From NCBI GenBank assembly GCA_030526425.1, contig JAUNCT010000003.1, positions 1 through 64,000 on the forward strand: DNA of 64,000 nt, in the 5' to 3' direction. Below are positions 193 through 58,633 of this stretch, piece by piece. The notes below the pieces were generated by a model that was given only the letters and a program-made list of their open reading frames with translations, did not search any database and had not been told where the DNA came from. The stretch's first letter is position 1. Each line of letters opens with the position of its first letter. The translations under genes and the position numbers were made by a program. Source of the DNA: Clostridia bacterium. GTDB taxonomy: Bacteria; Bacillota; Clostridia; Christensenellales; CAG-138.

Positions 193-819
193 TCAGCGCT
201 TGTAAGGAATGACGGCCTTTTCGGGATGGAGGCGGAAGTACTCGTTCCATTCCATCTGCTTGCGTTCGCCGTTCTCTTCGTAGATCAGCCAGGCTTTCTT
301 GGCCTTGTCCGCGATGAAGTGATCGGAATACGCGTCGCTGTAGAAGTTGTCGATATCCTTGCAGTCGTACTGCAGCTCGAAGTTGACGAGCTTCGCTTCC
401 GCAACTGCAAACTTTCCGGTGCACTTGCCGGTGACGCGGTCCATCTCGGTCGCAACGAGGTTCTTCAACCCGAGGCGGCGCACGATGGGTTCCATGATGA
501 AGCGCGGCGTACCGGACGCGATGATATCGTCGGGCTTCTTCACGCCGTCGTACCAAGGCATCATGTACTGCTCGACTTCATCCCAATAGGCTTCGAGCAG
601 CTTGTCGAAATCCTCGGTTTCCGCGATGCGCTTGAGCACGGGAGCATACTCCGCCTCGCGGGTCTCGGTCTTGGTCGCCCAGCCGCGACGGAGCTTGAAC
701 TCGTTCCATTTGTAGTTCAGCTTGCAGAAGAAATAGCCCTTCTTGCGGAAGATGAACTGGAAGAAACGGTCCTCACTGTCCCCGTAGAACAGGGTTTCAT
801 CAAAATCGTAAACGTTCAT
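193..819 (-). CDS. HAD-superfamily phosphatase (HAD-IB-like)
   Basis: 208 aa cytoplasmic protein. Motif I is YDFDETLF, with the nucleophile and acid aspartates at residues 5 and 7; motif II is the Ser/Thr in ASGTPRF; motif III is the YSDAYSDH segment. This order fits phosphoserine-phosphatase-like (HAD-IB) enzymes, which hydrolyse small phosphomonoesters; the substrate cannot be read from the sequence. It is the last gene of the oligopeptide importer operon, 16 bases after the second ATPase, and is followed by a strong terminator, so it is probably co-expressed with the importer. Family call is firm, physiological role unknown. Confidence 0.85.
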   Translation of the reverse strand: MNVYDFDETLFYGDSEDRFFQFIFRKKGYFFCKLNYKWNEFKLRRGWATKTETREAEYAPVLKRIAETEDFDKLLEAYWDEVEQYMMPWYDGVKKPDDIIASGTPRFIMEPIVRRLGLKNLVATEMDRVTGKCTGKFAVAEAKLVNFELQYDCKDIDNFYSDAYSDHFIADKAKKAWLIYEENGERKQMEWNEYFRLHPEKAVIPYKR

Positions 820-835
820 TCGTTATCCTTTCGGT

Positions 836-1806
836 TCAACCGTTGATATCGCGGATATCCGCAAGGCGGGAACACGCCACAAAGTGTTCGGGACGGACTT
901 CGACGAGCTGCGGAACACCGTTTCTGCAGTTTTCGCATGCATACTGGCAGCGGCTCGCGAAACGGCAGGCGTTCGGCGGGTCGATGGGGCTGGTGATCTC
1001 GCCCTTGATGGTGATGCGCTTTCTGCGGTTGCGGAGCGACGGCACGGGGATCGCGGAGAGCAGTGCCTCGGTATAGGGATGCAGCGGGTGCGCGAAGAGT
1101 TCTTCCGCGGGTGCCTTTTCGACGATCTGCCCGAGATACATGACGGCGATGTCATCCGAGAAATGGTTGACGACCGACAGATCGTGCGTGATGAACATGT
1201 ACGTGAGACCGCGTTCCTCCTGCAGCTTTTCGAGCAGATTCAGGATCTGCGCCTGAATGGAGACGTCGAGTGCGGAGACCGGTTCGTCGCAGACGATGAA
1301 TTTCGGTTCCATCGCCAGCGCGCGGGCGATGCCGATGCGCTGACGGCGTCCGCCGTCGAGTTCGTGCGGGTACGCGTTGACGAGACGTTCCGCAAGACCG
1401 ACCGTATCCATCAGTTCGAAAACGCGTTCCTCGATCTCGCGCTTGTCCTTGAGGATCTTGTTCAGGATGAGCGGTTCCGCAATGATCTGGTTGACCGACT
1501 TGCGGGGATCGAGCGAGGAGTACGGATCCTGGAAGATGATCTGCATGTCCTTGCGCATGGCGCGCATTTCGCGCTTGCCGAGCTTTGCGACATCATTGCC
1601 GTCGAACAGCACTTCGCCGCTCGTTGGCTCGATGAGGCGCAGGATGCAGCGACCTGTCGTGGACTTGCCGCAGCCGGATTCACCGACGACGCCGAGCGTT
1701 TTGCCGCGACCGATGGTGAAGTTGACATGGTCGACCGCATGCAGCATCCCCTTCGGGGTTTTGAAATATTTGGTGAGATCTTTGACCTCGAGAATGTTGT
1801 CTGCCA

Positions 1807-1807
<1 letters not shown>
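836..1807 (-). CDS. oppF: Oligopeptide/dipeptide ABC importer ATP-binding protein (OppF/DppF type)
   Basis: 323 aa, one of two ATPases energising a peptide importer at the inner face of the membrane. Walker A GESGCGKST lies at residues 42-50, Walker B is FIVCDEP with the D-loop SALDVS, and the H-loop is FITHDLS. The C-terminal oligopeptide domain carries the usual Cys-containing PNACRFASRC segment. The signature motif reads LDGGRRQR rather than the common LSGGQRQR; I recognise this form from other clostridial OppF proteins. Its start codon overlaps the stop of the preceding ATPase gene, so the two are probably translated together. Confidence 0.93.
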
Positions 1808-2823
<1,016 letters not shown>

Positions 2824-2835
2824 GGTCTTCCCTCC

Positions 2836-3726
2836 TTATCGTTTGAGTTTCGGATCGATCGCGTCGCGCAGACCGTCGCCGATGAGGTTGAAGGAGATAA
2901 CGGTCAGCAGGATCGCAAGACCCGGGAACAGGGTCATGTAGGAATAGTCGCGGATGTACTGACGTCCTTCGGACAGCATGGCGCCCCACTCCGGCGCGGG
3001 CAGCGGGATGCCGAGACCGAGGAAGCTCAGCGCGGACGCGGAGATGATCGCAGAACCGATGCGCAGCGTCGCCTGAACGATGATGGGCGAAAGGCTGTTC
3101 GGCAGGATGTGCGAGCGGATGACCTGCCAGTTCGTCGCACCGATGGCACGGCTCGCCTCGACGTACTCATTGTTGCGGACGGTCAGAACGGAAGCGCGCG
3201 CGACCTGCGCAAACGACGGGACCGTACAGAGACCGACGGCGATCATGAGGTTGAGCGCACTCTGACCGAGTGCGGAAACGACCGCGATGGCGAGCAGGAT
3301 GCTGGGGATCGCCAAGAAGATATCGACGACACGCATGATGATGTTTTCGACGATACCGCCCACATAGCCCGCGATCGCACCGAGCGTAACGCCGACGATG
3401 AGCGAAACACAGACTGCGATAAGACCGATGGACAGCGAATAACGGGCACCGTAGAGCACGCGGGCGAAGATATCGCGGCCGAGCTGATCGGTACCGAACC
3501 AATGCTGTGCAGACGGGGGCTTCAGACGCTGAGTGATGTGCTGGGCGACAACATCCTTCTGGTAATCGAAAATGAAACCGGAAGCGATCGCCACGCCGAC
3601 GATCAGAATGACCATGAACAGACCGAGCATCGCACCGGGGTTCTTGCGGAAACGGCGCCAGACCTCCTGCAGCGCGCTGCGGCGCTTGTATTGTTTGCGG
3701 GAACGCGTCCCTTGGTTGTTTTCCAT
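2836..3726 (-). CDS. oppC: Peptide ABC importer permease (OppC/DppC type)
   Basis: 296 aa integral membrane protein. It has a basic N-terminus, one N-terminal membrane helix, the periplasmic segment with WFGTDQLGRDIFARV typical of OppC/DppC, then a five-helix BPD transport core with the EAA loop (EASRAIGATNWQVIRSHILP). It pairs with the OppB-like permease encoded 13 bases upstream. AGGAGG ribosome binding site precedes the ATG. Confidence 0.94.
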   Translation of the reverse strand: MENNQGTRSRKQYKRRSALQEVWRRFRKNPGAMLGLFMVILIVGVAIASGFIFDYQKDVVAQHITQRLKPPSAQHWFGTDQLGRDIFARVLYGARYSLSIGLIAVCVSLIVGVTLGAIAGYVGGIVENIIMRVVDIFLAIPSILLAIAVVSALGQSALNLMIAVGLCTVPSFAQVARASVLTVRNNEYVEASRAIGATNWQVIRSHILPNSLSPIIVQATLRIGSAIISASALSFLGLGIPLPAPEWGAMLSEGRQYIRDYSYMTLFPGLAILLTVISFNLIGDGLRDAIDPKLKR

Positions 3727-6330: not shown

Positions 6331-7203
6331 TCAGACGCCCATGAAATCGGCGATGTTCGCCGTCTGCCCAAGCACGGGTTCGATCACGGGGGTCTTTGCG
6401 GTCATGAGGCAGGTGACGCCGGGGCCGTGTCCCATACGGATGCAATCGGAATGCATCACGACGCCGATCGTCCGGGCGCCCTTGAGGTAGCCGCGACCGA
6501 AGCTGTTGTCATGATCTTCGATTAGCACGATATCTCCGAAACGGAGCTTATCGAGCCCGTACTTCACAAGCGCATCTTTGTCCTGCGTCATGATATCGTA
6601 ATCGCCGTGGTAGCAGCTCGGTTCACCGATGCCGCTGCCCATGAGAAACGGCGGAACGACCGCCGCAACGGGAACTTTCAGAACGCCGTTTTCGGCGGTG
6701 ATACCCATCTTTTTGTAGAGCTCCGGGTCGAGATTCATCACCGTGACGGAATCTTCGAATCCTTCGAGCACCATGCCCTGCCCGTAGGCGCGGACCTGCA
6801 CCTTGTCGAGCATGGTCATTTTCTCGAGCGTTTCCCGCGGGAAGTAGCACAGCACATGCTCCACGCCGCCGTGGGTGCCGGTGACGAAGCCCTTCTCCCC
6901 CTTCGCATCGCCGGTGATCACCGTTGCGGTGTTGCCGACGCAGACAAGGTTGTTGAGACCGTCGTTCTCTTTGTGGTCGCTGTTCATGATGGTGACGCCC
7001 GGTTCGATATGATCGCCCGCCCAGCCGTAGACCGAGTCGCCGACTTTGACGTTGTAAACGATCGCCCCGGTGTTCGGCAGCATGTGCGCGTGACCTTCGC
7101 AGTCCAGACGGTAGGGCAATTCCTTCACGGTGGGATGGCGTACCTGTCCCATGACGCTCTGCATCACGAGCGCTTTTTCATTGGCGATCGGAACGTTTTT
7201 CAT
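6331..7203 (-). CDS. DUF4438-like protein
   Basis: 290 aa, no signal peptide or membrane helix. The sequence is rich in small beta-type motifs (GHAHMLPNTGAIVYNVKVGD, VCVGNTATVITGDAKGEKGFVTG, GYLKGARTIGVVMHSD) and matches my memory of the DUF4438 family, which has a solved but functionally unassigned Thermotoga member. Conserved His, Asp and Glu residues (CEGHAHM, HGGVEH, EDHDNSFGRG) could bind a metal or act catalytically. It is the first gene of the peptide importer operon, 53 bases before the binding protein, so a role linked to the imported solute is plausible. Function unknown. Confidence 0.65.
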   Translation of the reverse strand: MKNVPIANEKALVMQSVMGQVRHPTVKELPYRLDCEGHAHMLPNTGAIVYNVKVGDSVYGWAGDHIEPGVTIMNSDHKENDGLNNLVCVGNTATVITGDAKGEKGFVTGTHGGVEHVLCYFPRETLEKMTMLDKVQVRAYGQGMVLEGFEDSVTVMNLDPELYKKMGITAENGVLKVPVAAVVPPFLMGSGIGEPSCYHGDYDIMTQDKDALVKYGLDKLRFGDIVLIEDHDNSFGRGYLKGARTIGVVMHSDCIRMGHGPGVTCLMTAKTPVIEPVLGQTANIADFMGV

Positions 7204-7425
7204 TTTTTCGGAAGCCTCCTTCGGTGCACTTTACGATACTTCTCGCTGTTTTTTCGGAACGGTCGCAAAGCGATGCAACAAATCGTATATGATGTTTGCA
7301 TTTTAACACGGATTATCACTTTTCGAAAGATTATATATTATCTTATGTGAAAACATTGTCATGTTTTGACAAGTTTTCGCCGTTTTGGCATGCCGATTTG
7401 CAATTTTCTTTGATGTTTTTACAAG
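7204..7425 (-). promoter_or_regulatory. Promoter region of the peptide importer operon
   Basis: About 220 bases of AT-rich leader. On the minus strand there is a perfect dyad TTGTCA-N5-TGACAA at 7356-7372, then two AT-rich -10 candidates (TATAAT near 7335 and TAAAAT near 7304) and finally AGGAGG before the ATG at 7203. The dyad is the best candidate operator for the operon. The exact transcription start cannot be chosen from sequence alone. Confidence 0.45.
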
Positions 7426-7456
7426 TTAAAAAGAAAAACGGACCGAAGTCCGTTTT
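7426..7456 (-). terminator. Intrinsic terminator of the feo operon
   Basis: AAAACGGAC, a CGAA loop and its complement, followed on the minus strand by a long T-rich tract. It lies ten bases past the stop of the Cys-rich FeoB partner. Confidence 0.85.
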
Positions 7457-7465
7457 CCGTGATTC

Positions 7466-7630
7466 TCATTTGTTCTTTTCCGAACCGCAAAGGCTGCGTG
7501 CCGCGCAGGAGGTACAGTTCCCGCCGCAGCCGAGGCACTTCCCCTTCTTTTTCCGGCGGCGCATCACAACGCACGCCGCAACGACGAGCCCCGCAACGAC
7601 CGCAAGGACAACATAATCCGATGCGCTCAC
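7466..7630 (-). CDS. FeoB-associated Cys-rich membrane protein
   Basis: 54 aa. I choose the GTG at 7630, which overlaps the TGA of feoB as GTGA; a longer frame from 7684 would run inside feoB. One membrane helix (VVLAVVAGLVVAACVVM) is followed by a basic patch RRRKKK and a Cys cluster (CLGCGGNCTSCAARSLC). This is the standard pattern of the small FeoB-associated proteins found next to feoB in Firmicutes, thought to help ferrous iron transport. No function has been proven for the family. Confidence 0.8.
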   Translation of the reverse strand: MSASDYVVLAVVAGLVVAACVVMRRRKKKGKCLGCGGNCTSCAARSLCGSEKNK

Positions 7631-47747: not shown

Positions 47748-50108
47748 TTATTCGGTTTCGATGCCGTAGACGTCGGCGACCTTGCGTTTGAGATATTCGG
47801 TGTAGTACTTAGGGTCGAACTTGCCGCAGGCTTGTTCAAAGAGCTCGCCGGGCTTTTTGAGGCAGCCGTATTTGTGGATGTGTTCGGTGAGCCATGCGCG
47901 GACATCGGAAAGGTCTCCCTTCCCGACTTTTTCGTACACGTCGCCGAGGTCGCGCTCCATCACGGCGAGCATCTGCGCGCCGTAGGCACTGCCGAGGGCG
48001 TAGCTCGGGAAGTAACCGATGGAGCCGCCCGACCAGTGGGTGTCCTGCAGGCAGCCGTGCGCATCGTCCGGCACGTCGACGCCGAGGTATTCCTTATAGA
48101 GGGCGTTCCAGCGGGCGGGAACATCTTTGACTTGGAGCGTGCCCGCGATGAGCTGCTTTTCGATTTCATAACGCACCATGACGTGCAAAGCGTAGGTGAC
48201 CTCGTCCGCTTCCACGCGGATCAGCGAGGGCTCGACTCGGTTGACGGCGCGGTAAAAATCCTCTGCGGTGACGCCCGCCGTCTGTTCGGGAAAGATTCCG
48301 GCGAATTTTTCGAACAGCACCTGCGTGAAGGCGCGGGATCTGCCGATGATGTTCTCGTAAAAGCGGCTTTGGCTTTCGTGCACCGCCATGGAAACGCCGC
48401 CCGACAGGAGCGTGTGGTTGTACGCATCGTCGATGTCGAGCTCGTAGATGGCGTGACCGCCCTCGTGAATGACGGAGAACATCGAGCTTTCGGGCGCGTG
48501 CTCGTAGTAGTGCGTGGTGATGCGCACATCCCGGTTGGTGAAGTTGTTCGTGAAGGGGTGCTCCGTTTCGCCGATGGTGCAGAAATTCCGGTCGATGCCC
48601 ATGAGCTCCATGACCGCATCGGAAAAGGCGCGCTGCTTTTCGATGGGATAGGACTTGCGGAGGAAGGCATCGTCCGGTTGCGGACACCGGGCGACCTTGC
48701 GGATGAGCGGCACGAGGGTCGCGCGGAGTTCGGCGAAGAACGCGTCGAGCGTGGCGGTGTCCATCCCCTCCTCGTACTCGTTGAGCAGGGCGTCGTAGGG
48801 CGCCTTGTCGGGGGCGTAGTAGCCCGCGAACTTGCGGTTGAAGGCGACGATCTGTTCGAGGTACGAAGCAAACAAAGCGTAGTCGTTCGTCGTTTTCGCC
48901 TTTTTCCACACGGCGGAGGCGTTGTTCGTGAGGGTGACGTAGGCGGTATACTCGTTTTCGGGGATGCGCGAGATCTGCTCCGCCTCCTTCTTCAACAGCT
49001 CGGCCTTGCGGCGCAGGACCGTTTCGTTTTGGGGCGCGACCGCGAGGATGTCGTTTGCCAGCTGCAAGGTCGCGGGGTCGGCGATGAGCGCATACTCCAT
49101 GCCGCTCAAAACGCCCATGGTATGCCCGCGCCCTTCGGCACTGCCCTCGGGCGCGACGGTCTCCCCGTCCTGCATCAAGACGCCCATCGCGTGGCGGTAG
49201 GCGCAGAGCTTATCTTCCAACGCGGAAAGGCGTTCGGCAAGGCTTGCCGTGTCGGCGGGCGTCGGGAGCTCTTCCCACTTGCGGATGCCGCCGATTTCCG
49301 CGAAGGCGCGGTAATTGTCCGAGTCTTCCACGGGCGCATAGACCGCGAATTCGATCGTTTCGAAGTGCTTGCGGAACGGAGCGAGCGCATCCTCAAAAGC
49401 TTTGGCTACGACCTTCGGCGGGTTCATGAACGCACCGCAACCGAAGGCGCCGAGGATCAGGACATCCGCACCGTTCGCCGCGGCGATGGCAAGGACCCTG
49501 CGGATGCGCTTTGCCATCTGTGCGCGGAATTCCGCTTCGTCCGGAACGGTAAACAGCTGTTGGGGTTCGCGCAGGTCGGGCGCGGCGCAGGTGATGACAT
49601 CGACCGCATATCGCTCGCGATCCTGCAAGAAAGGACCGTCGAAGGTGTCTTCGCGCAGAACGCACACGCCGGGCGTGAAGATGCAATCGTCGTTGTTCAT
49701 GCGGTCGACGAGACATTCGTCGATCTTCCGCTTGTGTTCGGAATAAAACGACGCGGCGGAATCATCCGTCAGGCACGGATACAGGGTGCTGACCCGGCAG
49801 AGGCTTTCCTCCTGCGCGCGGGCGCCCCATGTCACACCTCCGCCCGGCGTGACGAACGAGGCGAAATTCAGCACGGCGACCTTGCGCTTGCCGTTGGCGT
49901 ATTTCTTCGCGGCGGCAAGGGTACGGTCCTTCGATAGGATCAGGGCGCAGGGTTCGGAACGCTTCGGTTCGGGAACGGGGACCTCTTCTTCGGCGAAGAT
50001 CACCCGCTGTGCCTTGACCGAAGCCCCGATGGTGCAGATGAGCGCGGGCTCGGTTTTGCAGGCGTGCATCGTTCTTTGAAAAATTTCGACCAATTCGCTT
50101 CTGTTCAT
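47748..50108 (-). CDS. Fusion: PARG-like macrodomain (TIGR02452) and M32 carboxypeptidase
   Basis: 786 aa, one uninterrupted frame with GAGGAGAA upstream of the ATG. Residues 1-275 form a microbial PARG-like macrodomain: PGGGVTWGARAQEESL holds the signature GGG (89-91) and catalytic QEE (99-101), and LGAFGCGAFMNPP follows. Residues about 285-786 form a carboxypeptidase Taq (M32) enzyme with HEGGH (548-552) plus HESQSRFYEN, RVEADEVTYALH and HWSGGSIGYFPSYALG. M32 enzymes are usually about 500 aa and stand alone. No signal peptide, so cytosolic. Both active sites look complete; I know of no such fusion in the literature. Confidence 0.92.
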   Translation of the reverse strand: MNRSELVEIFQRTMHACKTEPALICTIGASVKAQRVIFAEEEVPVPEPKRSEPCALILSKDRTLAAAKKYANGKRKVAVLNFASFVTPGGGVTWGARAQEESLCRVSTLYPCLTDDSAASFYSEHKRKIDECLVDRMNNDDCIFTPGVCVLREDTFDGPFLQDRERYAVDVITCAAPDLREPQQLFTVPDEAEFRAQMAKRIRRVLAIAAANGADVLILGAFGCGAFMNPPKVVAKAFEDALAPFRKHFETIEFAVYAPVEDSDNYRAFAEIGGIRKWEELPTPADTASLAERLSALEDKLCAYRHAMGVLMQDGETVAPEGSAEGRGHTMGVLSGMEYALIADPATLQLANDILAVAPQNETVLRRKAELLKKEAEQISRIPENEYTAYVTLTNNASAVWKKAKTTNDYALFASYLEQIVAFNRKFAGYYAPDKAPYDALLNEYEEGMDTATLDAFFAELRATLVPLIRKVARCPQPDDAFLRKSYPIEKQRAFSDAVMELMGIDRNFCTIGETEHPFTNNFTNRDVRITTHYYEHAPESSMFSVIHEGGHAIYELDIDDAYNHTLLSGGVSMAVHESQSRFYENIIGRSRAFTQVLFEKFAGIFPEQTAGVTAEDFYRAVNRVEPSLIRVEADEVTYALHVMVRYEIEKQLIAGTLQVKDVPARWNALYKEYLGVDVPDDAHGCLQDTHWSGGSIGYFPSYALGSAYGAQMLAVMERDLGDVYEKVGKGDLSDVRAWLTEHIHKYGCLKKPGELFEQACGKFDPKYYTEYLKRKVADVYGIETE

Positions 50109-50118
50109 GCCGTTCTCC

Positions 50119-50862
50119 TCATTTCCGACCGTTTTCCATAAAACCGAGGATCGCATCCGCGGTGGTTTGCCATTGTTCCCGGTGGGACATGGCCGCTTCG
50201 TTGTCGCCCGCTTGCGCGCCGTAGTCGCCGAAGCCCGCATGGTTCGCTCCCCGGAGCACGACCTCTTCGAAGCCTTTCGGCAGATTTGCCCGATACTTAT
50301 CATAGCTTTGGCGGTTCAAGACGCCATCGCGGTCACCGACTACAGACAGCACGGGCAACCCGGAATCCCCGAGGTCCGCAGTGGAATACGCCGCAAGCAG
50401 TACAAGCCCCGCAAAGCGCCCGGGCTCCTTTGCGGCACAGGACGCCGCCATTGCGCCGCCGAGGGAGTGCCCGCCGAGATACCAACGTGTGACACCCGGA
50501 ACGCTGCCGACGGTGTCGGTCGCGGCGTTGCTGCGGAACACGGCGAAGTTCGCGGGCATCTTCGTCACGACGCAGGTGACGCCCGCGCTTGCGAGATGCG
50601 CCATGAGCGGTGCATACGCGCGCTCATCCACCCGACCGCCCTGATAGAACACGAAGCCCGTGCCGTTCGGTTCCTTGGGGGTGAACACGATGTTCCGTTT
50701 CGTTTCGGTGACCGTGTACGCTTCCTTTGCGGCAAGCGCCGAGACCGCCGACTCGCCCGCACGCGCATAGCCCGCGGCGTAAACGCCGAAAGCCCCCGTG
50801 CCGAGGATGCAAAGCGCAAGAAGCACAAACAACGCCGTGCGCAATATCTTTTTCGTTTTCAT
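50119..50862 (-). CDS. Secreted or membrane-anchored alpha/beta hydrolase
   Basis: 247 aa with an N-terminal helix (LRTALFVLLALCILGTGAFG), likely an anchor. Catalytic triad by motif: Ser in GGHSLGGAMAA, Asp in VVGDRDGV, His in GANHAGFGDYG. Esterase/lipase-like or dienelactone hydrolase-like; substrate unknown. It starts upstream of the PARG-M32 gene on the same strand (ten bases apart) with GGAGGAAG, so the two are probably co-transcribed. Confidence 0.88.
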   Translation of the reverse strand: MKTKKILRTALFVLLALCILGTGAFGVYAAGYARAGESAVSALAAKEAYTVTETKRNIVFTPKEPNGTGFVFYQGGRVDERAYAPLMAHLASAGVTCVVTKMPANFAVFRSNAATDTVGSVPGVTRWYLGGHSLGGAMAASCAAKEPGRFAGLVLLAAYSTADLGDSGLPVLSVVGDRDGVLNRQSYDKYRANLPKGFEEVVLRGANHAGFGDYGAQAGDNEAAMSHREQWQTTADAILGFMENGRK

Positions 50863-50969: not shown

Positions 50970-52028
50970 ATGAGAATACATCAGCTCGAGACCCCTGCGG
51001 CGATCGTCGACCTCGACGCGCTCGACCGCAACCTCAAAACCATGCAGGAAATGCTCGGACCCAAGGGACCGAAGCTTCGCCCGCATTACAAAAGCTTCAA
51101 ATGCACGGCGATCGCGCATTACCTCGCGGCGCGCGGCGTCGACCGCTTTTTGACGGCAAAGCTTTCCGAAGCCGAAGACCTGATCGCGTCCGGCTTCGAG
51201 GATGTGCTCATCGGCAACCAAGTGACGGACCCGCAAAAGATCGCGCGGCTCGCTTACCTTGCCGGTTGCTGCAAGCTGACGGTCTGCGTGGACGACGCCG
51301 CGAACATCGCAGCGCTCGAAGCCGCATGCGCCCTTGCGGAAACGACGCTGCACTGTCTGGTGGAATTCGACATCGGCATGGACCGTTGCGGCGTACATAC
51401 CGAGGAGGAATTCATCGCGCTTGCGAAGCAGCTCGACGCCGCGCCGCACCTCGTTTTCGAGGGTATCCAAGCCTATGCGGGAAACCTTGCGCATGAGTTC
51501 GACAAGGAGAAACGTGCCGCCGGTTCTTTTGCCGTGGAAGAGAAGGTGCGGCACCTGAAGGCGACGGCGGAAGCTTCGGGTCTGACCGTGCCCACCGTGA
51601 GCGGTGTGAGTACGGGCACGGTCGCCTTCCATACGTGTGAGACCGTTTACACCGAGGTGCAGGCAGGCTCGTTCCTGTTCGGCGACCGCAGCTACCGCGA
51701 CGTCGGAACGGCGTTCAGACAGAGCCTTTATCTTCTGACATCGGTGATTTCAACGCGCCCCGGTACCGCCGTGTTCGATTGCGGCGTGAAAAGCCTCGGC
51801 ATGGACCAGCGCGCGCCGTATTTTGCGGAGTACCCCGATCAAGCCGTGGAATTCAGCGAGGAGCACAGCGCACTGTACTTCGCGCACGACCTTTGCGTGG
51901 GCGACCGCCGCCGCATCGTGCCCGGACACTGCTGCACGACGGTGAACCTTTGGGACAAGCTGTACCTGTGCCGCGGCGGGAAGGTGGTCGCCTGCGTGCC
52001 CGTGACGGGGCGCGGCAAGGCGCAATAA
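50970..52028 (+). CDS. D-threonine aldolase-like PLP enzyme (DSD1 family)
   Basis: 352 aa fold-type III PLP enzyme. N-terminal alanine-racemase-like barrel with the Schiff-base Lys in RPHYKSFKC (K41), GGG-free phosphate loop VSGVSTGT, and a C-terminal metal site PGHCCTTVNLWD. This pattern fits low-specificity D-threonine/D-serine aldolase or dehydratase (DSD1). It stands alone, divergent from the hydrolase gene, and ends at a bidirectional terminator. Confidence 0.88.
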   Translation: MRIHQLETPAAIVDLDALDRNLKTMQEMLGPKGPKLRPHYKSFKCTAIAHYLAARGVDRFLTAKLSEAEDLIASGFEDVLIGNQVTDPQKIARLAYLAGCCKLTVCVDDAANIAALEAACALAETTLHCLVEFDIGMDRCGVHTEEEFIALAKQLDAAPHLVFEGIQAYAGNLAHEFDKEKRAAGSFAVEEKVRHLKATAEASGLTVPTVSGVSTGTVAFHTCETVYTEVQAGSFLFGDRSYRDVGTAFRQSLYLLTSVISTRPGTAVFDCGVKSLGMDQRAPYFAEYPDQAVEFSEEHSALYFAHDLCVGDRRRIVPGHCCTTVNLWDKLYLCRGGKVVACVPVTGRGKAQ

Positions 52029-52058: not shown

Positions 52059-52096
52059 AGACCGGAAACCCGAGAGGTTTCCGGTCTTGTTTGTTA
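52059..52096. terminator. Bidirectional terminator
   Basis: AGACCGGAAACC, five-base loop and complement, T-rich exit. Lies between the aldolase-like gene and the end of the Mrp-like operon. Confidence 0.88.
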
Positions 52097-54178
52097 TGCG
52101 CGCCAAATGAGCATGTAGATAAAGATGAGGCAGATCGCCCCGCACAGCATCAGGAACGCAAAGGAGATGTTCGAGGTGAGGCGCGTCGTGACATCGCGCA
52201 CGGTATGCATGGTGCGGTAGAACAGATGCGCATAGCGGTGCTTGCCGTGCTGCTCCTTGCCGAGGCGCCACGCGAAGGTATCGACCTCGAGACCGAGGCG
52301 GTACGGAAGCGAATCGCGCACAGTGTCCTGCTCATACCAGCGGGACGGCTTGTAGAAGACCTTGCCGACGAGAAGGATCAGCGCGTCCGGCAGGTCGCAG
52401 GCGATCCTTCCGAGGATGCCCGAAACGCGGAGCGTGCCCTTTGCAAGCGGCGTCGTGATGCGGTTTTCGCCGAAGAGCGCGGCGAACGCGCCGCCGACAC
52501 CGGGCAGGACCTTCGTCAGCAGCGGACGATACACGAGTTCCTCGAGGTCGAGCTTTTTCGGCCAGCGGTCGACATACGCGCCGTTCTTCATGAGGACCTT
52601 GCGGATGAACAGGAAGTAGAGCGCGGCGCCGATGGCAACGGAAATCGCTGCACCCTTGAGGTTCGCAAGCGACAGATAGTGCACCGCGTGCTCGAGGTGA
52701 CCCGCGTGGAAGAAATCGGTACCGAGGTCGGCGATGCCGTTCATGGTGGTGTTCGCCGTCAAACCGAGCACCGGCAGGAGCACCGCGGGAACGGCGAGCG
52801 CAATGAAGCTTGCGGGGGTCATATACCGCTTGTTCTCATCGAACGCCTGCTGACGCTTGGGGTCGGCGTTCTTTTCGACGAAGAGGCAGACGTAGAGCTT
52901 CGTCATGTAGGCGAGCGTCATGCCGCCCGAAATGAGGAACAGCCACTCGACGACGGACAGTGCGGGACCGTAATGCGGCACGCCCTCGACGATCGCTTCA
53001 TGCAGGAGCGTTTTGGAAACGTAGCCGTTCAGGAGCGGGATGCCGCCGATGCCGAGATAGCCCATGAGGAAGGCGAAGTTCAGCACCGGCTTTTTGCGCC
53101 CGAAGCCGCGGATCTCGTTGAGGTCGAGCTTGTGGAGGTTCATGTACACGACGCCCGCGCATTCGAACAGCACCAGCTTGAACATGGAATGGTTGACCAT
53201 GTGCAGGAGCGTACCGCGCGCGGCGAGGGCGTTCTCCTCCCCGAGCAGCCCCATCATGCCGATGCCGACGAGGATGAAGCCGATCTGCGACATCGAAGAG
53301 CACGCGAGCGTGCGCTTGAGGTCGATGCTGAACAGGGCGAGCACCGCGCCGAGCACCATGGTCACGGTGCCGAGCGTGAGGATCAGCGTGCCCCATGCGG
53401 GGTCGTGACGGAAGATGTTGCAGGAGATCGCGAGGATGCCCCAGATACCGGACTTGGTCAAAACGCCCGACAGCAGTGCGGACGCGGGCGCCGGCGCAAC
53501 GGGATGCGCTTTCGGCAGCCAGATGTGGAGCGGGAACATGCCCGCCTTGGCGCCGAAGCCGAAGAGGATGCACCCGCCCGCGATGTAGAGGGTCTTCTTA
53601 TCCGGGCAGGCGGCGGCAAGCTCGTACAGCTTCGAGATCTCGGTCGTGCCGAGCTTGAAGGAAACGAGGAACAGACCCATCAGCGCCACGAGACCGCCGA
53701 TGACCGCGACGGCGAGGTATGTGAGCGCCGCCTTGGTCGCGCCCGGCGTTTCTTCCTGCATGACCCAGGTGAAGGACGTGAAGGACATGATCTCGAAGAA
53801 CACGAACGCCGTATAGAGATCCGCGCCGAGGAAAACGCCCATCGTCGCGCCGAGGGTCATGAGGTTGAAGAAGTAATAGCGGTTTTGGTTGTGATGGTGG
53901 CGGAAGTACTGCGGCGAAAGCAGCAGGGTCATTGCCCACATGAGGGCGATGACCGCGATGTACACCTTGCGGAAACCGTCGAGCTCGAGTTTGAGCCCCG
54001 CCATGAGCGGCAGGGTCAGTGCGTGATCCGGCTGCAGTACGGTGAACACCGCGACGCCGAGCGTCAAAAGCCCTGTGCCGATGGCGACGCGGTCGCGCAG
54101 CGCTTCGTTTTTGCGCCCCACCGCGAACGCGATGAGCGCCATGACCATCGGGAAGAAAACGAGAATCGTCAAATCCAT
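52094..54178 (-). CDS. NuoL/Mrp-type proton-conducting subunit, long form
   Basis: 694 aa, the longest of four antiporter-like subunits. The proton-antiporter core has the TM5 Glu in FVFFEIMSFTSF, the TM7 Lys in GAKAGMFPLHIWLPKAHP and the TM8 Lys in LTKSGIW. An extra C-terminal part (after residue about 500) adds more helices, so this one may play the MrpA/NuoL end-of-chain role. Last gene of the operon. Confidence 0.88.
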   Translation of the reverse strand: MDLTILVFFPMVMALIAFAVGRKNEALRDRVAIGTGLLTLGVAVFTVLQPDHALTLPLMAGLKLELDGFRKVYIAVIALMWAMTLLLSPQYFRHHHNQNRYYFFNLMTLGATMGVFLGADLYTAFVFFEIMSFTSFTWVMQEETPGATKAALTYLAVAVIGGLVALMGLFLVSFKLGTTEISKLYELAAACPDKKTLYIAGGCILFGFGAKAGMFPLHIWLPKAHPVAPAPASALLSGVLTKSGIWGILAISCNIFRHDPAWGTLILTLGTVTMVLGAVLALFSIDLKRTLACSSMSQIGFILVGIGMMGLLGEENALAARGTLLHMVNHSMFKLVLFECAGVVYMNLHKLDLNEIRGFGRKKPVLNFAFLMGYLGIGGIPLLNGYVSKTLLHEAIVEGVPHYGPALSVVEWLFLISGGMTLAYMTKLYVCLFVEKNADPKRQQAFDENKRYMTPASFIALAVPAVLLPVLGLTANTTMNGIADLGTDFFHAGHLEHAVHYLSLANLKGAAISVAIGAALYFLFIRKVLMKNGAYVDRWPKKLDLEELVYRPLLTKVLPGVGGAFAALFGENRITTPLAKGTLRVSGILGRIACDLPDALILLVGKVFYKPSRWYEQDTVRDSLPYRLGLEVDTFAWRLGKEQHGKHRYAHLFYRTMHTVRDVTTRLTSNISFAFLMLCGAICLIFIYMLIWRA

Positions 54179-54191
54179 GCGGTCTCCCTCC

Positions 54192-55661
54192 TTACATTCC
54201 GGCGGCGATCGCCGCGGCGGCGTTCACGATGGGCTGTGCGAAGATGCCCGTGAGCAGCACGCCGACGGACAGAAGAACCATCGGAACGGTCATTTTGAAA
54301 CCGACCTCATGCACCGACCCGAGCCCTTCCGCGATGTCGTCCTTTGCGGGGAACCAAACGCGGCAGACGACCGTGAACATGTACATGGCGGTCAGCAACG
54401 CGGCAAACAGCAGTACGGCTGCGCCGGCATACGCGAGGCGGCTGCCGGAATCCGCGGCGGCGGTCAGCAGGTGCCATTTACTGACGAAGCCCGAGAACGG
54501 CGGGATACCCGTCAGCGCCAGTGCGGACACCGTGAAGCAGGCGAAGGTCACGGGCATCCTTCTGCCGATACCGCCCATGTCCTTGAGGTATTCCCTGCCC
54601 GTGCCGTGCAGGAGCGCGCCCGCGCAGAAGAACGCGAGGATCTTGATCTCGGCATGGAACGCCATGTGGAGGAGACCCGCGGTGAGACCCGCTTCGGTCA
54701 TCATCAGCACGCCGAAGAGGATGTAGGACAGGTTCGCCACCGTCGAATACGCGAGGCGGCGCTTCCAGTGATGCTCCTTCAGGGCTTTCGACGCACCGTA
54801 GAAGATGGTGAAGATCGCGATGCACATGGCAACGCGCTGTGCCCAGGAGTGCTTGATAAGCTCCGTACCGTAGGCAAAGTAGGTCAGACGGACGATCGCG
54901 AACACACCCGATTTGACGACCGCCACGGCATGCAGCAGCGCGGTGACCGGTGTGGGCGCGACGCTCGCTTTCGGCAGCCAGCGGTGGAGCGGGAAGATCG
55001 CCGCCTTGACGCCGAAGCCGACGAAACCGAACAGCCAGAACAGCAGCATGATGTTGCGGGAGCCGTAGTCGCCGCCCGCGAGCACGCCGCCGAAGGTGTA
55101 GCCCGCGCCGTTGCCCTTGCCGATGATGAACATGAGCGACAGGAACGCGAACGCGGCACCGCCGAGGCAGTATGCGAGATAGCTGCGGACCGCACGGGTC
55201 GCCTTACGCGTCATGGGCTGCATGACGAGCGGCACCGTAACGAGGGTGAGCAGCTCGTAGAAACAGTACATCGTGAACAGGTCCGCGCTCATCGCAACGC
55301 CGAGCGTGATGCCGTAGCACATCGTGAAGAACGCGAAGAACGACGGGAGCCGCTCCTCATGGGACATATACTCGGCGGCGTACAGCACCGTCACGGGCCA
55401 CAGCGTGGCGACGATGCCGGCAAAGAACCTGCCGAGCGCATCGAACCGCAGGCGGAACGCGAGAGCCTTCGTCATGTGCAGGAGGGTCAGTTCCGATTTT
55501 CCGCAGGTGAGGATGAGCCCCCAAACGAGCGCACTCGTCGCAACGGTGACCAAGCCGACCCACGCCATGAGGACCTTTTTCGGCCGGTTGCGGAAAAAGA
55601 ACACGGACGCGCCGCCGAGGATCGGCAGCAGCACCGCGAGGATAAGAAACTTTTCGTCCAT
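54192..55661 (-). CDS. NuoL/M/N-Mrp type proton-conducting subunit
   Basis: 489 aa membrane protein. TM5 Glu in MYCFYELLTLVTVPLV, TM7 Lys in GVKAAIFPLHRWLPKAS, TM8 Lys in AVVKSGVFAI, and GFVSKWHLL near TM12. A complete antiporter module closely related to the two next genes; starts 11 bases after the previous stop. Confidence 0.9.
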   Translation of the reverse strand: MDEKFLILAVLLPILGGASVFFFRNRPKKVLMAWVGLVTVATSALVWGLILTCGKSELTLLHMTKALAFRLRFDALGRFFAGIVATLWPVTVLYAAEYMSHEERLPSFFAFFTMCYGITLGVAMSADLFTMYCFYELLTLVTVPLVMQPMTRKATRAVRSYLAYCLGGAAFAFLSLMFIIGKGNGAGYTFGGVLAGGDYGSRNIMLLFWLFGFVGFGVKAAIFPLHRWLPKASVAPTPVTALLHAVAVVKSGVFAIVRLTYFAYGTELIKHSWAQRVAMCIAIFTIFYGASKALKEHHWKRRLAYSTVANLSYILFGVLMMTEAGLTAGLLHMAFHAEIKILAFFCAGALLHGTGREYLKDMGGIGRRMPVTFACFTVSALALTGIPPFSGFVSKWHLLTAAADSGSRLAYAGAAVLLFAALLTAMYMFTVVCRVWFPAKDDIAEGLGSVHEVGFKMTVPMVLLSVGVLLTGIFAQPIVNAAAAIAAGM

Positions 55662-55671
55662 GGTCCGCGCC

Positions 55672-57126
55672 TCAGAACATGGATGCGGCGACCGATGCGA
55701 GCCAACCGACGATCGGCTGCGAAACGATGCCCATCACCAGCGTGCCCGCGGAAAGCAGCACAACGGGGAGCCACATGGTCTTACCGCCTTCATCGTTGCG
55801 GGCAGGTGCCTTAAAGCCCTCCCCGGGGAAGAAGCCGTTGATCGTCACGGGGAGAAGGTAGCCCGCGGTGAGGAGCGCGGAAACGAGCAGCACGACCGGC
55901 GCGAGCCAGGTGAACACACCCATCCCGGAGTTGAGCGCGCCCATCGCAAGGTACCACTTCGAAACGAAGCCGGACGCCGGCGGGATGCCGATGAGCGCCA
56001 GCGAAGCGATCGTGAACGCCCACAGGGTCACGGGCATGGATTTGCCGTAACCGCGGTATTCGTCGACGTTGTGCTTGCCGGTGTTGTGGATGAACGAACC
56101 CGCGACGAGGAACAAACAGACCTTGATGCAGGCATGGAACAGCACGTGCAGAAGACCGCCCGTGACGGATTCCGGCGTGAGGAACAGCAGACCCGTCATC
56201 ACGTAGGAGATCTGGCTGACGGAGGAATACGCAAGGCGCTTTTTGAACACCTTTTCGCGGTACGCCATCATCGAGCCCATGAACACAGTGAGCAGCGCCA
56301 GCGCGAGCCACGCCTTGTGCACCCAGGTGCCGAACAGGAACCCGGTACCGAAGGAGAAGAACACGAGGCGGATGACCGCCAGAACGCCCGCCTTGGCGAT
56401 GATGCCCGACAGGACCGCGGAAGCCGGCGCGGGCGCGACGGGGTGCGCGGTGGGCAGCCAGCCGTGCAGCGGATAAAGACCCGCTTTCGCGCCGAAACCG
56501 ATGACGCCGAGGAACGCCGCAACGAGCAGGAGCGTTTCATGCCCCGCGAGCTTTGCCGCATCGAGGTTGCCGCCGGCGTTGAATTCGAGCGTCGTCGCAT
56601 AGCGGTTGAGGAAGAAGATGCAGCCGAGCGCGAGGAAGGCGCCCGCGACCGAGTAGAACAGATACTTCATCGCGGCACGCACCGACTCCTTCGAGCGGTC
56701 GTGCAGAACGAGCGGCATCGACAGCAGGGTGATCATTTCGAAGAAGAAGTACATGGTGATGAGGTTGCGCGAGAAGTCCATGCCCATGAGCGCCGCCTCA
56801 CTCAACAGGAAGAAGACGAAGAAGCGCCCCTCCCCTTCCTCATGCTCGAGATACTTGAACGCGTAGATGCCGGTGGGCAGGAAACCGAACGCCGCGATCG
56901 CCATGAACACCTTGGACACGCCGTCCATCCGGAGGGCGACGGTGAGCGTTTCCGTCATGGAAAACAGCACCGCTTCCGCAGCGGGCACGGTCAGCATGTA
57001 CAGGGCGAGCAGCGCTTCGAGAACGAGCGCCGCACCCGCGACGAGGTGGATCTTTTTCCGGTCTTCCCCAAGGAACGGCAGTACCGCCGCGGCAAGCACC
57101 GGGACCAGGATCATCAAAATCATCAT
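55672..57126 (-). CDS. mrpD: NuoL/M/N-Mrp type proton-conducting subunit (MrpD-like)
   Basis: 484 aa. TM5 Glu in MYFFFEMITLLSMPLVL, TM7 Lys in GAKAGLYPLHGWLPTAHP, TM8 Lys in GIIAKAGVLAV. Length and order relative to the NuoK-like subunit fit MrpD. Four bases separate it from the previous gene. Confidence 0.9.
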   Translation of the reverse strand: MMILMILVPVLAAAVLPFLGEDRKKIHLVAGAALVLEALLALYMLTVPAAEAVLFSMTETLTVALRMDGVSKVFMAIAAFGFLPTGIYAFKYLEHEEGEGRFFVFFLLSEAALMGMDFSRNLITMYFFFEMITLLSMPLVLHDRSKESVRAAMKYLFYSVAGAFLALGCIFFLNRYATTLEFNAGGNLDAAKLAGHETLLLVAAFLGVIGFGAKAGLYPLHGWLPTAHPVAPAPASAVLSGIIAKAGVLAVIRLVFFSFGTGFLFGTWVHKAWLALALLTVFMGSMMAYREKVFKKRLAYSSVSQISYVMTGLLFLTPESVTGGLLHVLFHACIKVCLFLVAGSFIHNTGKHNVDEYRGYGKSMPVTLWAFTIASLALIGIPPASGFVSKWYLAMGALNSGMGVFTWLAPVVLLVSALLTAGYLLPVTINGFFPGEGFKAPARNDEGGKTMWLPVVLLSAGTLVMGIVSQPIVGWLASVAASMF

Positions 57127-57130
57127 AGGT

Positions 57131-58633
57131 TCAACCTACCTTTCCGAAGATCTCCAACCCCCGCTCGAGCAGACCGATGAGGGGCGAAGCGAAGATGCCC
57201 GCCGTGAGATTCAGCACGACGGAAGCGACCGCGGAGACCGCGAACGAACTCTGATCGCGGAACTCCGGCGCGGGAAGAAACTCTTTCTTGGGAACGTTGT
57301 ACAGACGGATGACCGTACGCGCGAAGTAGAAGGTATTCAGCAGCGTCGACAGTGCGAGCACGATGAGCGGCAGGACCATCTTATGCTGCGTTTCGAGTGC
57401 GGCAAGCGCAAGCATGTACTTGCTCATGAACACCATCGTCAGCGGGATGCCGATCATGCTGAACGCGCCGATGGTGAAGGTGACGCCCGCAAGCTTCGCG
57501 GCGTGCGCGGCACCGTGCAGGTCGCGGAAGCGCTTACTCCCGCCCGCGGCGTCGACAAGGCGCGAAGCGGACAGGAACAGCGCGGGCTTCGTGACAGCGT
57601 GCGCGAGGATGTGGAACAGCGCGGCGGTGACGCCCATGGCGGGCGAGATGCCGATGCCGAGGTAGATATAACCGATCTGCGCAGAAGACGAATGCGCGAG
57701 CATGCGGTAGATGTCGTTTTCGCGGATGGCGCCGATGGAGCCCATGATGATGCCGCACATACCGAACACATACAGCACGTTCTGCACGCCCGAGGCGTAG
57801 AAGACTTCCGCACCGAAGACCGAGAAGATGACCTTCAGCAGGAAGAAGATGTAGCCCTTACTGACGAGACCCGAGAGGATACCCGAGGAGCAGGGCGTCG
57901 CATAGCCGTAGGTATCCGGCATCCAGTAATGGAACGGGAACATACCGCTCTTGATCGCAAGACCGACGGTGATGAGGCAGATCGAGGTCGACAGCGGCAC
58001 GCGGTATTCCCCGCTTTCGGCGAGGACCGCGATGGCGGACTTCATATCCGGCATGAGCAGGTGCCCCGTGATGTTGTAGAGGAACACCACACCGAGCAGG
58101 AACAGACCCGAACCGATGAGGCTGAAGATCATATAGCGGATCGCCGCGAGGGTGGTCCTGCCGACGTTGCGGATCATGAGGATGCCACAGGACGCGAGCG
58201 TGCAGATCTCGATGAAAACGTAACCCGTGAAGATATCGTTCGAGTAGCACAGCACGACGAGCGCCGCCTGGATGAGGTTCACCATCACGAAGTAAAGGTT
58301 GCGCTTGTCCTTTTCGATATCCTCGATGATGTGCTTGCGCCCGCCGATGAGCGTGAGGCACATGATCACCGAGAACGCCGCCGAGAACAGCGGCTCGAGA
58401 ATGCCCATTTGGATCTCGTTGCCCCACGGCCGCGGGAAGTGACCCATCATGTAGGTGACGGTCTTGCCGTTTTGGATGCCCATGACCAGCACGCAGATGT
58501 TCGCCGCGGCGAGCAGCCATGCGAGAGTCATCGAAAGGTGATGCGCCACACGGCTCTTCACGACCGAGCACGCGACGGAACAGATGAGGCACGCAACGAT
58601 CATGAACAGCGGAAGGTTGACGAAAAAGCTCAT
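57131..58633 (-). CDS. NuoM/N-Mrp type proton-conducting subunit
   Basis: 500 aa. TM5 Glu in GYVFIEICTLAS, TM7 Lys in AIKSGMFPFHYWMPDTYGYATP, TM8 Lys in LVSKGYIF. It resembles MrpD/NuoN. Its ATG overlaps the stop of the NuoK-like gene as ATGA. Confidence 0.9.
   Translation of the reverse strand: MSFFVNLPLFMIVACLICSVACSVVKSRVAHHLSMTLAWLLAAANICVLVMGIQNGKTVTYMMGHFPRPWGNEIQMGILEPLFSAAFSVIMCLTLIGGRKHIIEDIEKDKRNLYFVMVNLIQAALVVLCYSNDIFTGYVFIEICTLASCGILMIRNVGRTTLAAIRYMIFSLIGSGLFLLGVVFLYNITGHLLMPDMKSAIAVLAESGEYRVPLSTSICLITVGLAIKSGMFPFHYWMPDTYGYATPCSSGILSGLVSKGYIFFLLKVIFSVFGAEVFYASGVQNVLYVFGMCGIIMGSIGAIRENDIYRMLAHSSSAQIGYIYLGIGISPAMGVTAALFHILAHAVTKPALFLSASRLVDAAGGSKRFRDLHGAAHAAKLAGVTFTIGAFSMIGIPLTMVFMSKYMLALAALETQHKMVLPLIVLALSTLLNTFYFARTVIRLYNVPKKEFLPAPEFRDQSSFAVSAVASVVLNLTAGIFASPLIGLLERGLEIFGKVG

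Follow-up and report, generated by a model that had tools for sequence, protein, structure and literature searches.

In the window, the whole 64,000-nucleotide stretch of DNA analysed here, one gene encodes a PARG macrodomain followed in the same reading frame by a complete M32 carboxypeptidase. Most likely, the join is a genuine one that brings into a single frame two intact enzymes, each of which would keep its ordinary activity. With moderate confidence, the protein can be described as the product of a resident M32 gene that captured a PARG, both enzymes being cytosolic and the two domains working independently of each other.

Architecture of the fusion gene

The gene, its domains and motifs, and the gene directly upstream are located as follows.

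47748-50108 (-): fusion gene, PARG macrodomain plus M32 carboxypeptidase, 786 aa (translation; Pfam and NCBIfam; AlphaFold model)
49293-50108 (-): microbial-type PARG macrodomain, residues 1-272 (PF10021, TIGR02452; alignment to 3sig and 5zdb; fold match 3sih)
49836-49844 (-): GGG of the PARG signature, residues 89-91 (motif position; conserved in the PARG alignment)
49806-49814 (-): QEE of the PARG signature, residues 99-101 (motif position; 3sig alignment; fold match)
49239-49292 (-): interdomain linker, residues 273-290 (low pLDDT; ATG and GTG absent from residues 261-307)
47751-49238 (-): M32 metallocarboxypeptidase domain, residues 291-786 (PF02074; alignment to 3hq2; fold match)
48453-48467 (-): HEGGH, residues 548-552, zinc ligands and catalytic Glu (motif position; alignment with 3hq2)
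48375-48377 (-): E578 of HESQ, presumably the third M32 zinc ligand (motif position; M32 structures in general)
50115-50119 (-): AGGAG ribosome-binding site of the fusion gene, which overlaps the upstream gene's stop codon (sequence)
50119-50862 (-): upstream alpha/beta hydrolase (PF12695), probably bearing a signal or anchor (Pfam; sequence; start placed at the ATG of MKTKKILRT)

Translation of 47748-50108 (-) yields 786 residues with zero internal stops, the stop codon of the gene being 47748-47750 (-). The AGGAG sits six bases 5' of the ATG at 50108. A longer protein was considered, as the frame is open up to 50303, but such a start overlaps the hydrolase gene and it is the ATG at 50108 that has the ribosome site. 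The AlphaFold model (mean pLDDT 88.5, pTM 0.71) contains two confidently predicted domains.

The N-terminal half is matched by PF10021 (PARG_cat_microb) at residues 7-153 (Pfam; E 2e-28, 99.9 bits against a cut-off of 23.5) and by TIGR02452 at residues 31-270 (NCBIfam; 161.9 bits, cut-off 50). It aligns across the catalytic loop with the enzymes of Thermomonospora curvata (3sig) and Deinococcus radiodurans (5zdb), and its part of the model matches 3sih with a TM of 0.83 by target length (Foldseek). Both the 3sig alignment and the fold match place E101 at the position of the glutamate changed in the E115A structure 3sij. The whole domain, the GGG-x7-QEE loop and the fold are therefore like those of microbial-type PARGs (PF10021, DUF2263 or TIGR02452; 3sig, 5zdb), although the fusion bears a C-terminal M32 peptidase whereas in most of the relatives found PARG stands alone.

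The M32 family comprises cytosolic carboxypeptidases that depend on metal, and the C-terminal half is near full length for this family. PF02074 (Peptidase_M32) matches residues 296-776 (Pfam; E 8e-169, 562.8 bits against a cut-off of 25.1), covering positions 4-488 of the 489 in the profile. The half aligns along its whole length with Bacillus subtilis BsuCP (3hq2), which its part of the model also matches, with a TM of 0.95 by target length (Foldseek). Besides HEGGH, it keeps HESQ (577-580), IRVEAD (630-635) and GYFPSYALG (698-706); from M32 structures generally, we take E578 of HESQ to be the probable third zinc ligand. The likeness to the M32 Taq family thus extends over the profile, the HExxH, HESQ, IRxEAD and GYFPSYALG motifs and the fold. 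Unlike BsuCP, however, the fusion has an N-terminal macrodomain instead of a free N-terminus, and its M32 start codon is absent.

E-values this small exclude chance for the domain matches, and one frame with two strong family matches rules out a chance frame or a frameshift. The sequence-only reading, which had placed a PARG macrodomain and a complete M32 peptidase in one open frame, is borne out, with GGG at 89-91, QEE at 99-101 and HEGGH at 548-552. By sequence and model, both halves look like working enzymes.

Relatives of the fusion and of its halves

Other fused members were sought with both halves and with the whole protein, as the sequence-only reading had proposed, and none was recovered in the genome, viral, plasmid or phage sets. 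Apart from the window's own, the genomes listed for comparison lie outside its genus. Its own genome (assembly fragmented, 72% complete) contains one PARG and one M32, both of them the fused ones. Among its own and relatives' genomes, 89 of 201 were matched, nearly all via M32 alone; G005 carries M32 and PARG at separate places, while in G077 a PARG was found and M32 was not detected. Genome contigs supplied 61 M32 loci, and none of these has a PARG. TIGR02452 scores above cut-off in 3 of 103 family, 8 of 396 order, 17 of 391 class and 14 of 398 phylum genomes, these being overlapping sets (roughly 1,200 genomes overall) in each of which the window's own genome is counted, and at none of the TIGR02452 loci read do PARG and M32 share a frame. 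The whole protein found a match in 59 of the 391 class genomes, with no fusion. Viral sequences gave the same result, with M32 fused to none of 80 viral PARG loci and no match in a whole-protein scan of viral contigs, and no plasmid or phage record covers 80% of the fusion protein. Hidden N-terminal domains before M32 were considered in L002, L014, L024, L060 and L078 and rejected, as the long open frames there look non-coding by eye.

No paper describing a PARG-M32 fusion was found in the literature searched. The earlier statement that no described fusion of this kind was known thus agrees with the papers and genomes searched, and within what was searchable the domain pair appears to be undescribed. 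The likeliest status of the fusion is that of a rare, lineage-restricted one.

The tree built from 89 M32 sequences groups the window's M32 as a pair with that of a same-family genome, G006 (62% identity, SH-aLRT 94). In the PARG tree, the window's PARG pairs with that of G470, from another order, inside a mostly viral clade that is patchily distributed and rich in phage sequences. Because these placements differ, the halves seem to have different histories; as judged from the sequences, M32 would be a resident peptidase and PARG a widely exchanged hydrolase. Many viral contigs (L151-L230), several of them >200 kb, carry a standalone PARG of the same clade. The closest standalone PARG, that of G470, lies on a small contig with CTP_transf_like and BspA-type leucine-rich repeat genes (L143:3258-3926 (-) and 6642-7496 (-)), the CTP_transf_like gene being separate from the PARG gene.

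PARG has further fusion partners. In L094, L095, L117 and L118 it is fused to a DraG-type ADP-ribosylglycohydrolase; the DraG-PARG fusion of L094, from a same-family genome, lies directly 3' of a VWA-like gene (577-1251 (+) and 1270-3075 (+)). These proteins (PF10021 plus PF03747; L094, L095) place the same PARG domain within a two-enzyme protein, but the DraG partner is itself an ADP-ribose hydrolase, which makes the functional link obvious, whereas here the partner is a peptidase. A CTP_transf_like domain that looks NadD-like is fused to PARG in two genera (L110:1426-3018 (-), L124:1453-3048 (-) and L128:1438-3057 (-)), a link to NAD metabolism. In L140:1438-2859 (+), PARG has a C-terminal HD domain, an arrangement that recalls the D. 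radiodurans operon pairing PARG with an HD-domain protein (PMC11833690).

An independent M32 fusion is found in L017 (Clostridiales MAG RUG14842; 3363-5402 (+)), where a GNAT acetyltransferase is in frame at the M32 N-terminus. As in the window, another enzyme is joined to the N-terminus of M32, but the partner is an acetyltransferase and its M32 retains internal ATG codons at the start.

The junction and the neighbouring genes

The join falls where PARGs usually end and M32s usually begin. Standalone PARGs, such as that of G470, terminate near the position of residue 272, and M32 relatives have their initiator methionine a few residues ahead of the region that begins at residue 291 of the fusion. 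Between them lies a weakly predicted linker with pLDDT <50 at residues 282-287. This stretch is what favors a polyprotein, a single chain cut in the linker into two ordinary enzymes; no cleavage signal was recognised, however, and such processing is highly improbable.

Residues 261-307 contain no ATG or GTG, and the sole TTG, at 297, is without an obvious ribosome site. Separate M32 translation from within the gene was rejected on these grounds, as the first ATG does not come before residue 308. With no usable M32 start in this region, the fusion is probably the only form in which the M32 half is made.

Composition is even across the join. The G+C content is ~60-65% throughout the gene; the two halves have third-position G+C of 0.75 and 0.83 (neighbouring genes 0.71 to 0.87) and synonymous-codon scores of -0.93 and -0.80 (neighbouring genes -1.07 to -0.76). 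The sequence-only reading had held that the fusion would be an assembly artefact if close relatives kept the parts as separate genes and reads here showed a frameshift. All relatives found do have the parts apart, or one part only, but there is no frameshift. Given the intact frame, the absence of an M32 start codon and the even composition, an assembly artefact is unlikely on sequence grounds. The specific alternative is a chimera, in which PARG and M32 genes from different places or organisms were joined during metagenome assembly. It would account for the absence of the fusion from all relatives and for a gene neighbourhood not common to other M32 loci, and the source genome is fragmented. 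Chimeric assembly would nevertheless have had to join the genes in frame, exactly between the domains, with the M32 start codon missing and with G+C and codon usage matching on either side, well inside a contig of 109,794 bases. It is consequently quite unlikely, and a real fusion is preferred.

Upstream, the hydrolase gene ends at 50119, leaving a ten-base gap to the fusion ATG at 50108, and the two genes are likely on the same transcript. The likely N-terminus of the hydrolase, MKTKKILRTALFVLLALCILGTGAFG, is hydrophobic and on inspection resembles a signal or anchor, so the hydrolase probably acts outside the cytosol, whereas the N-terminus of the fusion has no such segment. The suggestion that the hydrolase is a partner in the same process as the fusion therefore loses ground, and on sequence features a shared process looks unlikely.

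The genes beside the fusion do not go with M32 in the relatives' loci compared; in L001 and L057, the gene after M32 resembles a tRNA nucleotidyltransferase (by eye). Divergent from the fusion operon, window positions 50970-52028 (+) encode an Ala_racemase_N plus D-ser_dehydrat protein of the D-threonine aldolase or D-serine dehydratase type. Farther along, a run of large genes at 52094-58633 (-), of which only the first, a Proton_antipo_M protein, was checked, resembles an antiporter cluster of the Mrp or membrane hydrogenase type. Neither the fusion nor the upstream hydrolase was matched by PADLOC defence models.

Predicted activities and their possible coupling

In the favoured account, a PARG gene from the patchy, phage-shared clade would have ended up immediately 5' of the resident M32 gene, and the PARG stop codon and M32 start codon would then have been lost, giving a single polypeptide. 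The macrodomain, with E101 as catalytic residue, would most likely remove terminal O-linked ADP-ribose, for example toxin-made 2'-OH-linked ADP-ribose on RNA, or the units at the ends of ADP-ribose chains. The zinc enzyme in the C-terminal half (H548, H552 and E578, with E549 as general base) would trim the C-termini of short peptides, and the short flexible linker would allow each domain to work alone. We infer the two activities, what they act on and that they are uncoupled. The fusion was seen in one genome, whose assembly is fragmented and 72% complete. That each domain keeps its ordinary role is the most economical reading.

The sequence-only reading had instead proposed that the enzyme strips ADP-ribose from a target and then trims it. 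Such a coupled device, with PARG removing ADP-ribose from a protein or peptide and M32 trimming it next, would speed the turnover of ADP-ribosylated peptides, and the physical join and the intact catalytic residues of both halves are consistent with it. However, a second fused case was not found, so that conservation does not speak for the pairing, and the M32 N-terminal end can join an unrelated enzyme (GNAT), which weakens any argument from fusion to shared pathway; given that PARG too is fused to several other enzymes, the join alone predicts no pathway. Moreover, bacterial PARGs of the microbial type undo 2'-OH ADP-ribosylation of RNA, and such a PARG guards E. coli against the RNA-ADP-ribosylating toxin (PMC11833690), so the demonstrated bacterial role is on RNA. 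Microbial PARGs are described as strict exo-hydrolases with a GGGx6-8QEE motif (PMC7050489), M32 trims peptides, and it is the join that would connect the two. Sequential action on one target is accordingly unlikely.

A further alternative is a sensor, in which the macrodomain would bind ADP-ribose and switch the peptidase on or off with the NAD or stress state. Macrodomains bind ADP-ribose, and the linker is short. The full catalytic loop is retained, however, unlike that of a domain reduced to binding, and no conserved fusion suggests an evolved switch, which leaves this role very unlikely. Taken broadly, a bifunctional enzyme that couples ADP-ribose removal to trimming, or whose M32 is under ADP-ribose control, perhaps against ADP-ribosylating toxins, is unlikely. 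The fusion's own genome, at 72% complete, has no DarT partner (PF14487), and two sirtuins score above cut-off on other contigs. Some selected coupling is possible in that the M32 half no longer starts alone.

Should the fusion prove to be coupled and fixed in its lineage, ADP-ribose removal would be tied to peptide turnover in one molecule, and the protein would offer a simple construct with which to ask if the substrates of bacterial PARGs include peptides besides nucleic acids. If the parts are independent, as is more likely, the gene would clearly exemplify how a resident peptidase gene can capture an ADP-ribose hydrolase that is widely exchanged.
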